Virus record (IMG/VR): IMGVR_UViG_3300010430_000290
Coordinates: 1 to 33,646 of that record
Strand: one strand, 5' to 3'
DNA length: 33,646 nucleotides
Source of the DNA: a virus
Both the position numbers and the translations under genes were made by a program. The notes under the pieces are model-generated. The model did not search any database and was not told the DNA's origin. It saw only the letters and a program-made list of their open reading frames with translations. Shown in pieces: positions 3,107 to 6,579 of this stretch; the stretch's first letter is position 1; the number at the start of each line of letters is the position of its first letter.

Positions 3107-3430
3107 ATGGCTACAAAAAAAACAAGCAAAAAAGAATCAAAAAAGAAAAAAGACAATGCCGACAACATGGCGGGGCTGCTGCCTGTCAGTGAGCTAAGGG
3201 GCGTACTCGGTCAGGAGATGTCGCCTTCGGCAAAGATATTAAAACTTGGCTTTATCCTCAGTGGAGGCATAAATGTAAACCCGTACCAAGTGGGTTACCA
3301 TTTAAAGATGCACCCAGCAGAAGTGCATGCCGGGTTAACGGAGCTAAAGCACAGAAAAGAAATCGTACCGGGAGCAGATCGCGACACGGTTGATGTAAAA
3401 AGAGAAAGCCATTTTGGCTTAACTAAGTGA
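3107..3430 (+). CDS. Small basic protein with possible winged-helix-like segment, function unknown
   Basis: A 107-residue protein. The first ~20 residues are almost all Lys, Ser and Thr (highly basic and probably disordered). Residues ~40-90 look like a compact helical domain with a possible helix-turn-helix arrangement, ending in a basic segment. It starts at ATG one base after the stop of the giant virion gene, behind a GGGGAG ribosome site inside that gene's end. It sits between the last virion gene and the lysis genes. I do not recognise the family. DNA binding or packaging is possible from the charge but unproven. Confidence 0.75.
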   Translation: MATKKTSKKESKKKKDNADNMAGLLPVSELRGVLGQEMSPSAKILKLGFILSGGINVNPYQVGYHLKMHPAEVHAGLTELKHRKEIVPGADRDTVDVKRESHFGLTK

Positions 3431-3440
3431 AGGAGTTAGA

Positions 3441-3641
3441 ATGGAAACATTTTTGATTTACTTGGCCATTGGGCTGGGTATTATGAATGCGGTCATGCCG
3501 CTAGTTAAAAAGATTGTCAGCAAAACAAAGAACAAGAGCGATGACAAGGTGGTCGAGATTATAGAAGAAGCCTTGTTGCTGGCAAAAGGATTGCAAGCAG
3601 AGAAAAGCGGCATCGAGGCCGCTAAAAAAAAATCTGCTTAG
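3441..3641 (+). CDS. Putative holin (one N-terminal membrane segment)
   Basis: A 66-residue protein with a hydrophobic segment at about residues 3-25, directly followed by a Lys-rich stretch and a charged, probably helical cytoplasmic tail. An AAGGAG ribosome site lies just upstream of the ATG. The next gene is a peptidoglycan peptidase, and a small single-span membrane protein immediately before an endolysin is the usual position for a holin. The topology (one segment, N-terminal, with long charged tail) fits small class III-like holins, but could also suit a different membrane protein. The assignment rests on size, topology and neighbour, not on a recognised family motif. Confidence 0.6.
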   Translation: METFLIYLAIGLGIMNAVMPLVKKIVSKTKNKSDDKVVEIIEEALLLAKGLQAEKSGIEAAKKKSA

Positions 3642-3655
3642 AACCTTGGTTTACC

Positions 3656-4090
3656 ATGTCGAAGAGAAACGCGAATATAAACAGCCTCAAGGATCCCTTT
3701 CGCTCGGCAATACTATGGCTAATCTACCTGATAGAAGAAGAGGGATTAGCCGTTACGGTGTTCGAGACAAAGAGGAGTAACGAGAGGCAAAACAATCTAA
3801 AGAAGCGAGGCGCAAGTAAGGCCAATGCGGGTCAAAGCCCTCATAACTATGGCCTTGCTTGTGACTTTGTTTTAGACACTAAAAAAGTAAAAGTTCAAGA
3901 GCGCGAATGGCAGGGTAAAATGTATCCCGATGCTTGGGATTACAGTACGCCAGAAGCCAAAGCGGTTTACGACCGTCTTGGCGAGCTGGCGGAGTCCATT
4001 GGCTTAGAGTGGGGTGGCAGATGGAAGTTTCTCGACGTGCCGCATGTTCAGCTTAAGGACTGGAAGAAGCTTAAAGATACTGACCGTTAA
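3656..4090 (+). CDS. Endolysin, M15-family L-alanyl-D-glutamate / D-Ala peptidase
   Basis: A 144-residue single-domain zinc peptidase of the M15 (VanY / T5-endolysin type) fold, expected to cut the peptide stem of peptidoglycan for host lysis. Zinc ligands are visible: His63 and Asp70 in the SPHNYGLACDF motif and His130 in DVPHVQL. The segment GLEWGGRW (about 117-124) is the typical pre-catalytic motif and Asp127 is a plausible catalytic acid. There is no signal peptide and no wall-binding domain, so it probably needs the upstream membrane protein as holin. The absence of a binding domain is more usual in phages of Gram-negative hosts. Its last 20 bases overlap the end of the convergent gene at 4071. 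Confidence 0.9.
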   Translation: MSKRNANINSLKDPFRSAILWLIYLIEEEGLAVTVFETKRSNERQNNLKKRGASKANAGQSPHNYGLACDFVLDTKKVKVQEREWQGKMYPDAWDYSTPEAKAVYDRLGELAESIGLEWGGRWKFLDVPHVQLKDWKKLKDTDR

Positions 4091-4298
4091 GGCTGTAGCA
4101 CTGAGGTTCGTACTCCTCAATCAGTCCCGCTCGACACAGCGCTGTCATCACTAGCCTTGCTTTTACGTTTAACCGAACAGCTATGGATAGTGGACCCATC
4201 CCTTCCTTGTACATTCGAACAGCCTCCTTCTTTGCTTCCGCTTGGCTTATGCCCATCTTGACCCAGTGCCTTGGTTCCGACTTGCGCTTCATAATCAT
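4071..4298 (-). CDS. Small helix-turn-helix protein
   Basis: A 75-residue protein. Residues ~28-60 have the pattern of a helix-turn-helix (an MYKEGMGPLSIAVRLN first helix and turn, then a recognition helix), like small resolvase/homeodomain-type HTH modules in phage regulators. The start is ATG at 4298, overlapping by four bases (ATGA) the stop of the -1-frame nuclease ORF, so translation is probably coupled. It is the last gene of the leftward block and its end overlaps the end of the convergent endolysin gene by 20 bp. Regulation of the convergent late operon or of its own block is possible. No target is evident. Confidence 0.72.
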   Translation of the reverse strand: MIMKRKSEPRHWVKMGISQAEAKKEAVRMYKEGMGPLSIAVRLNVKARLVMTALCRAGLIEEYEPQCYSLNGQYL

Positions 4299-5055
4299 AT
4301 ACTCCCATCTGGTTCCACATTTAACTCTCCTACTTTAAACAACTCACTATATGCAAGGTTGAAGGTTTCACACCTAGCCCTAAAAGTATTGGTGCCATCA
4401 CTGTCTCCGGGCTTTAAGAACTTGGCTTCTTTAAAAAACAGATCAGTAGGTATATAGCCCATAAGAAAAACTTTAGACAGGTCTCTCTTTACGGATGCGA
4501 AGATATAGTAATCGCAATCTTGACGACGTGTTATGTTAGGTATTGATGCGGCGTAATCTATTCGAGGCTTATTGTTTCTTACCTTGCTTTTAACGTCTAT
4601 GGTTGCGCCCCTTAGCGAGATGTCCCAGTCATAAGTATTGTTATGCTTTGCTGCCCCAAGATAATGACAGGCTGCGTATTCTCCCAGTATTCCGGCAACG
4701 GTTCCGTCGCCACGCCTTATGCTATTCTTTAGCGTATCTTTAAACCGAGCAGCTTCTGCTTGCGCATTCTTTATCCACTCCGGTCGGACTTCAACTGTAA
4801 TGACATCTGCTGGTTGTTCTGTTTTTTTTTAAGAGGTGCTCCACCTTTTGACATCCCTACCCATAGATTTAGTTCAGGGCTTTGAATAACCATGGCGGCA
4901 TCGGTTGTGGGAATGTCTCTTGGTTCGGTTTTTTGAATGCCTAGCAAGGTGCTGTTAGGAAAAACTTTTTTAACACCAAATAAAAACTTGGTCATCATGT
5001 CCCAGTCTGCCTCTGATGATTTAATAATACTTACTTCACGCACTGTTAACTTCAT
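4295..5055 (-). CDS. PD-(D/E)XK-like nuclease made by -1 frameshift (fusion product, about 253 aa)
   Basis: Two open frames appear to form one gene. The first starts at ATG 5055 and, without shifting, stops at 4771. The second is open from 4828 to 4295 but has no ATG, GTG or TTG until far inside and is preceded by an in-frame TAA at 4831-4829. They are joined at a run of nine A (minus strand, 4830-4822). Slipping -1 on A AAA AAA gives L-KKK-TEQP and a 253-residue fusion. The downstream part has a GILGE helix (E126), then D143/D145 and an IDVKSK strand (D154, K156), the arrangement of a PD-(D/E)XK nuclease core. An AGGTGGAG Shine-Dalgarno-like element at 4846-4839, eight bases before the A run, resembles the dnaX frameshift stimulator. 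Its stop overlaps the next start (ATGA), which argues the frame is translated. A one-base homopolymer assembly error (true A10) would also explain it. Confidence 0.65.
4771..5055 (-). CDS. Zero-frame (unshifted) product of the frameshift gene
   Basis: The 94-residue reading without frameshift shares its first ~78 residues with the fusion product and then ends after 16 frame-specific residues. The shared N-terminal part (about residues 1-75) has beta-strand/helix character and contains a WVGMSKGG segment. I do not recognise the family. The start ATG overlaps the end of the upstream resolvase-like gene by 20 bases, as usual in this block. The short form may be a separate product, as with dnaX gamma and tau, or simply the incomplete reading of a gene broken by a homopolymer miscount. 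Confidence 0.5.
   Translation of the reverse strand: MKLTVREVSIIKSSEADWDMMTKFLFGVKKVFPNSTLLGIQKTEPRDIPTTDAAMVIQSPELNLWVGMSKGGAPLKKKQNNQQMSLQLKSDRSG
4822..4830 (-). promoter_or_regulatory. A9 slippery run, candidate -1 frameshift site
   Basis: Nine consecutive A on the minus strand inside codons CTT AAA AAA AAA CAG. It holds a heptameric A AAA AAA slip site and is also long enough for polymerase slippage. AGGTGGAG lies eight bases upstream, and AGGTGgagCACCT can form a small hairpin there. The -1 frame is open for 177 codons after the run. Confidence 0.55.
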
Positions 5056-5371
5056 TGTATATCCTCATAAGATCTCCAAACAGATCAATGTCTAGCGTGA
5101 CGTAGGTAGGTCCGTGGTCCCACTTTGTTATAGCGACAGGCCGAAGTAAGCCGCAAGCTTTCTTCGCCTGTTCCATTGCTGCCTTTATGTTTGGTCGCTT
5201 GCCTACTTTGCATTCAACCCATAGGTCACCAACATTCATGACATCGGGACACTCGGCACCGTCGCGATACTGTATTCCACGACGAGCTTTCTTGAAGCCC
5301 AGTCGTTGAAAATGTTTAGCCATCTCTCTCTCAAAGTTATGGCCTTTTGTTCGCGATCTTTTGCCAGTCAA
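5036..5371 (-). CDS. Resolvase-like PD-(D/E)XK endonuclease
   Basis: A 111-residue protein with the compact nuclease layout of archaeal-type Holliday junction resolvase and VRR-NUC-like proteins: Glu14 in the first helix (NFEREMAKHF), PD at 42-43, WVECK (E53, K55) and Gln68 in a following helix. It probably cuts branched or recombination intermediates; the exact substrate is not readable from sequence. The start is TTG at 5371, overlapping the TGA of the upstream gene by four bases. This longer start keeps the RSRTKG N-terminus typical of the family, whereas the next ATG (5323) would remove Glu14. Genes on both sides belong to the replication/recombination block. Confidence 0.8.
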   Translation of the reverse strand: MTGKRSRTKGHNFEREMAKHFQRLGFKKARRGIQYRDGAECPDVMNVGDLWVECKVGKRPNIKAAMEQAKKACGLLRPVAITKWDHGPTYVTLDIDLFGDLMRIYNEVNSA

Positions 5372-5592
5372 ACCGAATCCACCCTTCCGTACTGATCTTC
5401 GTTTTCATAATCAATACGCTCTTGCAGGTCTTCGTTTCTAATAACCATCATCTTCATGCGGTTCAAGATTACGTTTGCCTCAGAGAAGGTAAACTTAATA
5501 ACCCTTGCATGCGAGTCTGGAAGCTCTGTTGCTTCTGCTTTCTCAAACTCCCGTATGCGTTCTTCTATTAACTGTATTAACTGATGTTGCAT
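5368..5592 (-). CDS. Small helical protein, function unknown
   Basis: A 74-residue acidic protein, largely alpha-helical with possible coiled-coil character (IQLIEERIREFEKAE near the start and a second helix with VILNRMKMMVIRNEDLQ). Its ATG overlaps the stop of the preceding gene (TAATG) and its own stop overlaps the TTG start of the resolvase-like nuclease, so it is embedded in the translationally coupled series. No recognised family. It could be an accessory factor for the adjacent nucleases, but this is only context. Confidence 0.7.
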   Translation of the reverse strand: MQHQLIQLIEERIREFEKAEATELPDSHARVIKFTFSEANVILNRMKMMVIRNEDLQERIDYENEDQYGRVDSV

Positions 5593-5921
5593 TATTGCTC
5601 CCCTTCCGGACCATCTGAATGATGAACCGATCTGTCTTCACAGATTGTATTAAAAAAAATATCATTAATCAAATCTCTGTCTATTTTTTCTTCAAAGTGT
5701 CGATGCGCGTCAGGCCATAAGCGCAGCGGTATGCTTTTTTTCTTCATGCGACCGCCGCTAACTTCAGCCAAACTTTCTTCAAGTTCTTCACAAGCTAGTG
5801 CTATCAAGTACGCGGCAATGCCAAACTCTTTAATGACTGCAGCCTTGCTTCGCAACCCGTCTACCTCCTCAGTGTAGGCGAGCAGCGTGAGCATGGCTTC
5901 CTCGAAGACGTGGCTACGCAT
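5592..5921 (-). CDS. Hypothetical helical protein following the exonuclease
   Basis: A protein of 109 residues if started at ATG 5921 (MRSHVFEE). This start overlaps the end of the YqaJ-type exonuclease gene by only eight bases, fitting the compact style. The frame is open up to an ATG at 6002, which would add 27 mostly basic residues but overlap the exonuclease by 89 bases. The protein has Ala/Leu/Glu-rich helices (residues ~5-50) followed by a basic KKK stretch and an acidic C-terminus. No family recognised. The position right after the exonuclease suggests a role in DNA metabolism, unproven. Confidence 0.68.
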   Translation of the reverse strand: MRSHVFEEAMLTLLAYTEEVDGLRSKAAVIKEFGIAAYLIALACEELEESLAEVSGGRMKKKSIPLRLWPDAHRHFEEKIDRDLINDIFFNTICEDRSVHHSDGPEGEQ

Positions 5922-6579
5922 TAGCTGCGGCGATGTCTTGTTTTTCTTCTTGGACTTCTTTCCAGAACTCAATGCAACCCTCAAGTATCTCCTCATGCGC
6001 AAAGCAGTCAGCCTCTATCAGAATAGTTTCCCTGTCTGCAGTGGTGAGGTGGTGTACGGACAAATCCCATCTGGTGAGACCCGTCAACATCATGTAGTAC
6101 TGGCATTGTAGCCAATAGTTTTCAGGCATCTTTTTTTCAAGACCGTCCCATTTTCGTTTTCCAAAGTAGTGAGTAACCTTTGCTTCCCATCCCCATTTTA
6201 TTCCGCTAACCACAAGGCCATCACTGTGAGGTGACACTTTATACCTAGAGTTTAGCCTTACTAAACCATCAGGAGACCCCACCAAAAAGTCATAGTCAGG
6301 GTGAACAAATGTGTGGCCCGGAAGTAAATCGTTCTCAACCTCAGCAACAGGGTCCATAACGTGTTCACCTGTTTTCTCTTCGTACCACTTTCTAACGGAG
6401 TCCTCATACATAAGACCCGACTCTGTAAACTTGTTACCCTCAAAGTTATCTGCAAGCCTACCGCTCTTCTCGCCTAAAAGTTGATCACGAGTCTTGTACT
6501 CACTGACGCCAAGTATGGCGGCAATGTCGGTGCCGCCAATACGCTGGGTTCTGTCTTTTGGTTTCACGAACAATATCAT
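5914..6579 (-). CDS. YqaJ-type phage recombination exonuclease
   Basis: A 221-residue nuclease of the YqaJ / lambda-exonuclease family within the PD-(D/E)XK superfamily. Seen in sequence: the GGTDIAAILG signature (15-24), a helix with GLMYEDSVRKWYEEKTG (55-71), the SPDG motif (Asp104), the metal-binding EAK motif (132-134), and a LQCQYYM helix (Gln158/Gln160). Family members resect double-stranded ends 5' to 3' to give a 3' single strand for an annealing protein. A Rad52-type annealer and SSB are encoded upstream in the same block, so the three likely act together in recombination-dependent replication or end repair. Start ATG at 6579. Confidence 0.9.
   Translation of the reverse strand: MILFVKPKDRTQRIGGTDIAAILGVSEYKTRDQLLGEKSGRLADNFEGNKFTESGLMYEDSVRKWYEEKTGEHVMDPVAEVENDLLPGHTFVHPDYDFLVGSPDGLVRLNSRYKVSPHSDGLVVSGIKWGWEAKVTHYFGKRKWDGLEKKMPENYWLQCQYYMMLTGLTRWDLSVHHLTTADRETILIEADCFAHEEILEGCIEFWKEVQEEKQDIAAANA

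Follow-up and report, generated by a model that had tools for sequence, protein, structure and literature searches.

A phage gene for a predicted PD-(D/E)XK nuclease that is probably expressed by programmed -1 recoding at a run of nine adenines

Gene content and reading frames of the locus

We analyzed a 33,646-bp IMG/VR virus record over its whole length (hereafter, the window). The plus strand carries its head genes (terminase, portal, and a weak major-head match), and Rad52-like, SSB, sigma-like, AAA ATPase, YqaJ exonuclease, and RusA/Hjc-like resolvase genes form an early block on the minus strand. This block ends with a 94-codon ORF, 5055-4771 (-), the start of which overlaps the resolvase gene by 20 nt. 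The locus contains the following features.

5036..5371, minus strand: upstream gene, RusA/Hjc-like resolvase (phrog_244, E 2.4e-12)
4771..5055, minus strand: frame-0 ORF encoding a 94-aa protein with an N-terminal domain (about residues 1-70), a linker, and a frame-0 tail
4841..4849, minus strand: SD-like stretch AAAAGGTGG, -7.3 kcal/mol with the anti-SD, 12 nt upstream of the heptamer
4829..4831, minus strand: TAA of the nuclease frame, from CTTAAA, at the run's 5' edge, also in L094 and L015
4822..4830, minus strand: A9 slip run, exactly nine A's in five lineages
4828-4822, minus strand: in-phase heptamer A_AAA_AAA within A9
nt 235-282 of the 94-codon ORF, minus strand: tail read only in frame 0, part of the 94-aa protein
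4771..4773, minus strand: frame-0 stop TAA, about 50 nt past A9
4295..4822, minus strand: -1 frame, predicted PD-(D/E)XK nuclease without its own start, 175 codons, stop TGA
4071..4298, minus strand: small HTH-like gene downstream, with an ATGA overlap with the nuclease stop

The A9 run occupies nt 226-234 of the 94-codon ORF and is read as AAA AAA AAA in frame 0. A preliminary description of this DNA had pointed to A9, with its A_AAA_AAA, as the place where the upstream ORF is joined in the -1 frame by an open frame of 177 codons lacking a usable start and preceded by TAA. The run, the heptamer, the TAA, and the missing start are all present in the sequence, but counting from the re-read A the frame has 175 sense codons. 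Its earliest ATG, GTG, or TTG is at 4462, deep within the domain, and the TAA at the run's 5' edge rules out an entry into the nuclease frame from further upstream. Across the -1 junction the reading is LKKK followed by TEQPADV..., giving the junction peptide LKKK-TEQPADVITVEVRPEWIK and a predicted fusion of 253 aa. We also found AGGTGGAG 8 nt upstream of A9, the spacing originally given, and the nuclease-frame TGA (4297-4295) does overlap the ATG of the next gene as ATGA.

The sequence ATGTGGAAYCAGRTRGGAGTATATGATK at the nuclease end and HTH-gene start (4290-4320, -) is near-identical in L094, L002, and L015 (L015:2517-2545). The nuclease stop of L015 precedes ATGTGGAAYCAGRTRGGAGTATATGATK, yet the sequence is almost unchanged there. 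It also opens a frame MWNQxGVYD, and its conservation may reflect merely the RBS (GGGAG) of the next gene.

Two further homopolymers were observed elsewhere in the window. A T8 on the coding (-) strand at 5652-5659, within ORF 5592-6002 and encoding FF, is kept in L097, L098, and L100, with no alternative frame noted. The gene at 3107-3430 (+) has a very Lys-rich N-terminus (MATKKTSKKESKKKKD) with an A8 at 3115-3122, and L100 has an A8 at the same place.

Predicted structure of the two parts

The model of the nuclease part (pLDDT 86.9) has a PD-(D/E)XK fold. VIA-align gave Z scores of 8.0-9.4 against NhoI and Eco15I of the BisI family (family name from PMC11347163) and 7.4 against both DpnI and archaeal Hjc, within an overall range of 9.4 to 7.0, at sequence identities of merely 12-16% to these structures. 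By its model, then, the nuclease part is a PD-(D/E)XK protein nearest to BisI-family enzymes, DpnI, and Hjc, which it resembles in both predicted fold and active-site layout. The residues singled out in the preliminary description as the PD-(D/E)XK motif (E126, D143/D145, and D154-V-K156 of the fusion) correspond to E48, D65/D67, and D76-V77-K78 in nuclease numbering, and across 43 relatives each is invariant or shows at least 90% conservation. Searches by sequence returned no solved structure for the nuclease, and Pfam, PHROG, and PADLOC returned no match for the window nuclease and weak ones for some relatives. Some of those weak PADLOC matches were to models of methyl-directed restriction enzymes. 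In L106, the nuclease is followed directly by a Dam-type N6-adenine methyltransferase gene (L106:3556-4005; PF05869, E 1.4e-11), which precedes the HTH-like gene and was not seen in the other relatives. Together with the weak PADLOC matches it would fit a link to DNA modification, the Dam gene being a single case.

The model of the N-terminal domain (pLDDT 73.6) comprises two helices and three strands, with disorder setting in at about residue 70, so that by the models the run falls in a linker between two folded parts. Pfam, PHROG, and PDB sequence searches with this domain gave no match, and a fold search from the same model gave nothing credible, with a best Z of 2.8. We considered a beta-clamp-binding motif in the frame-0 tail, which reads QMSLxL in the window, L002, and L015, but rejected the idea because the tail has PMLLPL in L094 and nothing similar in L106. 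Conservation of the tail does not extend to L106, so any function of its own in the short product is hypothetical.

Relatives with and without the nuclease

We scanned IMG/VR with three queries: the nuclease, the N-terminal domain, and the neighboring resolvase. Besides the window, four further lineages have the same split: L002/L003, L094, L015, and L106, with nuclease identities to the window of 89%, 83%, 55%, and 37%, respectively. The N-terminal domains of the five lineages fall to 38% identity. Each of the five places the nuclease in the -1 frame, with exactly nine A's at the junction. The run consists of three AAA codons in the window, L002, L094, and L015. In L106 it reads TTA AAA AAA AAG, with the phase moved by one base and the count still nine, and the in-phase heptamer there is A_AAA_AAG, as in E. 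coli dnaX.

Among the relatives found with both the N-terminal domain and the nuclease, none had an unbroken fused ORF. The comparison of homologues proposed with the original observation thus came out in its favor, with slip run and split frames kept in every such relative. A search of 2.9 million viral contigs for the GGNGCNCCNCTN-A9 pattern returned only these relatives and one unrelated contig. L096 matched the run pattern by chance and is without the nuclease.

L105 serves as a natural control. The N-terminal domain protein, 94 aa long and ending KAKKAPPKKPQPVLPMEAVER, is all that it encodes between the upstream resolvase (68%) and the small HTH-like gene downstream, both of which it has in common with the window; the A run and the nuclease are absent. 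The N-terminal domain can therefore stand alone, and the run accompanies the nuclease. The RusA/Hjc-like resolvase is a neighbor in all relatives.

In about 80 other phage loci (about 40 without near-identical ones) the nuclease is a separate ORF, and nearly all of these ORFs have a start codon (ATG, GTG, or TTG) at the domain edge or close to it. A scan of genome contigs returned a single remote nuclease relative, and in the phage collection there was neither a relative of the N-terminal domain nor a nucleotide match to the locus. One stand-alone nuclease relative, at L010:1269-1775 in MW202481.1 (Manatee Spring podovirus), had been left unannotated.

Selection and codon use

To compare the two parts we calculated dN/dS among the window, L002, and L094, between which dS is 0.96-2.9. 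Values were 0.08-0.11 for the N-terminal domain and 0.02-0.15 for the nuclease read in the -1 frame, versus 1.4-2.1 in the shifted control frame. These estimates show strong purifying selection on both parts, which are therefore evidently translated, in agreement with the earlier impression that the -1 frame is a coding one. Over the 48 nt read in both frames, a short stretch, dS drops to 0.05-0.65, as would be expected for dual coding. Lys codons in these genes are AAA and AAG at about 1:1, so A9 is not the default spelling of KKK. With that usage, and at near-saturated synonymous divergence, the retention of three consecutive AAA codons in several lineages is not explained by codon bias.

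Signals around the run

The preliminary description had likened the layout to that of dnaX. An in-phase A_AAA_AAR heptamer is present in five of five lineages, as is an SD-like stretch 10-12 nt upstream (-5.1 to -10.7 kcal/mol, scores equaled by 5-25% of windows from the same gene). The likeness to dnaX is partial: the SD-like stretch scores just modestly above background, and no conserved downstream structure accompanied it, as the lineages share no stimulatory hairpin downstream, with z-scores mostly between -1.4 and 0.7 and one lineage at -2.2. An upstream hairpin next to the run (AGGTG-GAG-CACCT) was set aside, being present in the window, altered in L002, and gone in L015.

A second run of nine adenines

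Another A9 lies at 3624-3632 (+), at the 3' end of a 66-aa ORF (3441-3641) with one hydrophobic segment, and has exactly nine A's in the window, L097, L098, L100, and L105. A -1 shift at this run would lead, stop-free and in frame, into an M15 endolysin at 3656-4090 (216 aa for the window). The equivalent of the 66-aa ORF in L106 has an A_AAA_AAC heptamer shortly ahead of its stop, which would give the same endolysin fusion. The endolysin ATG is without an SD (-0.3 to -2.7 kcal/mol in the five lineages scored); 14 of 16 other window genes have an SD of -5 kcal/mol or better. The second A9 could be a recoding site or could reflect translational coupling, and we regard it as a lead, not a result.

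Discussion

Together, the frames, the relatives, and the selection estimates make it very probable that this gene is expressed by programmed -1 recoding at A9. Most decoding would stay in frame 0 and yield the 94-aa protein, and a fraction would enter the -1 frame on A9 and yield the 253-aa fusion, the C-terminal 175 residues of which form the predicted PD-(D/E)XK endonuclease. As A9 itself would encode a flexible linker, the shift would amount to a conditional gene fusion in which the nuclease is kept scarce relative to its N-terminal domain. The split frames, the missing start, the conservation over five lineages, the selection on both parts, and the predicted fold of the nuclease are seen in sequence; the slippage itself, its efficiency, and its agent are inferred. 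With a TAA at the run edge in three lineages, the shift appears to be confined to the run. The neighboring resolvase, YqaJ exonuclease, Rad52-like, and SSB genes suggest a role for the nuclease in phage recombination or DNA processing, and by the same gene context the N-terminal domain may be a partner or targeting domain.

We considered whether the nuclease might instead be translated alone, from a non-standard start codon or by reinitiation, with the A run a coincidence of a Lys linker. Related nucleases are separate genes, an ATT is found near the domain edge in the window and L002 (only these two), and L002 has an in-frame ATG 14 codons before the nuclease, with a CTC codon there that removes the TAA; in L002, an unshifted start from that ATG is conceivable. 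For the family as a whole this reading is quite improbable. No start codon of any kind is common to all five lineages, an upstream start such as that of L002 is absent in the other four, there is no SD ahead of the nuclease domain, and A9 is missing exactly where the nuclease is missing. The frame-0 stop, moreover, is about 50 nt inside the nuclease, from which we infer that ordinary reinitiation is unlikely. Still harder to credit is a decaying gene or an error of sequencing or assembly. Errors are common in homopolymers, and the sequences are all metagenome contigs, but the A9 and the split are repeated in contigs of five distinct phage lineages, which argues against sequencing error, and purifying selection on both parts and the TAA at the run edge in three lineages speak against decay or error as well.

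Which machine would slip within programmed recoding is more evenly balanced. RNA-polymerase slippage, giving mRNA with A10, may contribute alongside tandem tRNA-Lys slippage on A_AAA_AAR. A purely ribosomal shift in the manner of E. coli dnaX, with tandem tRNA-Lys slippage on A_AAA_AAA or A_AAA_AAG, stimulation by the SD-like stretch, and incidental extra A's, falls a little short of an even chance in our judgment. The heptamer and the SD-like stretch in all five lineages favor it, and according to PMC4066793 A_AAA_AAG and A_AAA_AAA are the usual IS-element motifs, making up 72% of IS-element heptamers. Seven A's would be enough for the ribosome, however, yet nine are retained; the last codon of the run is AAA, not AAG, in four lineages despite even use of the two; and in L106 the extra A is the wobble base of TTA, which accounts for only 7 of the 57 Leu codons of that locus. 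A conserved downstream structure is absent, and at the second A9 of these phages no SD-like stretch keeps a constant spacing from the run. Transcriptional slippage is associated with homopolymers of about nine or more A/T, and the run has exactly nine in five lineages; the A9 of Y. pseudotuberculosis tssM3 gives 15-25% frameshifting (PMC4256274). That exactly nine A's are kept in two codon phases tips the balance slightly toward the polymerase, although with lineages that are not independent this is not an exact probability. We would extend this only tentatively to the idea that nine-A runs are a -1 recoding device at two unrelated genes in these phages, with RNA-polymerase slippage as the agent, set by run length and not by stimulatory RNA signals. 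If true, A9 would add a nuclease to a small protein of DNA metabolism and an endolysin without a ribosome-binding site to a peptide with a membrane segment.

The E. coli dnaX -1 frameshift uses A_AAA_AAG with an upstream SD and a downstream hairpin. The present locus resembles it in the Lys-coding A run, the in-phase A_AAA_AAR, the SD-like stretch about 10-12 nt upstream, and the two predicted products with a common N-terminus. Unlike dnaX, it has no conserved downstream hairpin and a run nine A's long, and its predicted shifted product, which would gain a catalytic domain, is the longer of the two, the reverse of the situation in dnaX. The dnaX frameshift is covered in PMC5009743 and PMC4066793. 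The phage tail-chaperone G/GT and capsid-extension frameshifts reviewed in PMC5009743 are similar in that, in a tailed phage, a small ORF is extended near its 3' end by a -1 shift that adds a domain to a minority of the product, but here no structural or tail gene is involved, and the added domain is a nuclease that is a stand-alone gene elsewhere. The transcriptional slippage genes tssM1 (A11) and tssM3 (A9; PMC4256274) likewise have nine or more A's and two length variants, the latter predicted from sequence in our case; the present example differs as a phage gene with an SD-like stretch. Influenza A PA-X is a viral nuclease form that depends on frameshifting (PMC3498833), but it uses a +1 shift in an RNA virus and has its nuclease domain upstream of the shift, whereas here the nuclease is downstream and would depend on the shift.

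According to the preliminary description, no phage nuclease is known to be regulated in this way, and we likewise found none made by frameshifting in the open-access literature. The GeneTack cluster survey (PMC3711429) names no such phage nuclease in its main text. Phages with programmed -1 recoding are already known, as are nucleases of this fold; what is unusual here is the nuclease payload.

Programmed recoding in tailed phages is known mainly from structural and tail-assembly genes. Here a nuclease that is an ordinary gene in other phages appears to have been placed behind a slip site, such that its only product would be a limited fusion with a partner domain. Because some relatives have the nuclease and the run and others lack them, the mechanism, whether ribosome or polymerase, can be tested, and so can the reason for it, which may be the limiting of a harmful nuclease or the building of a two-form complex. 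The locus is also a warning that such nucleases are missed by annotation pipelines.
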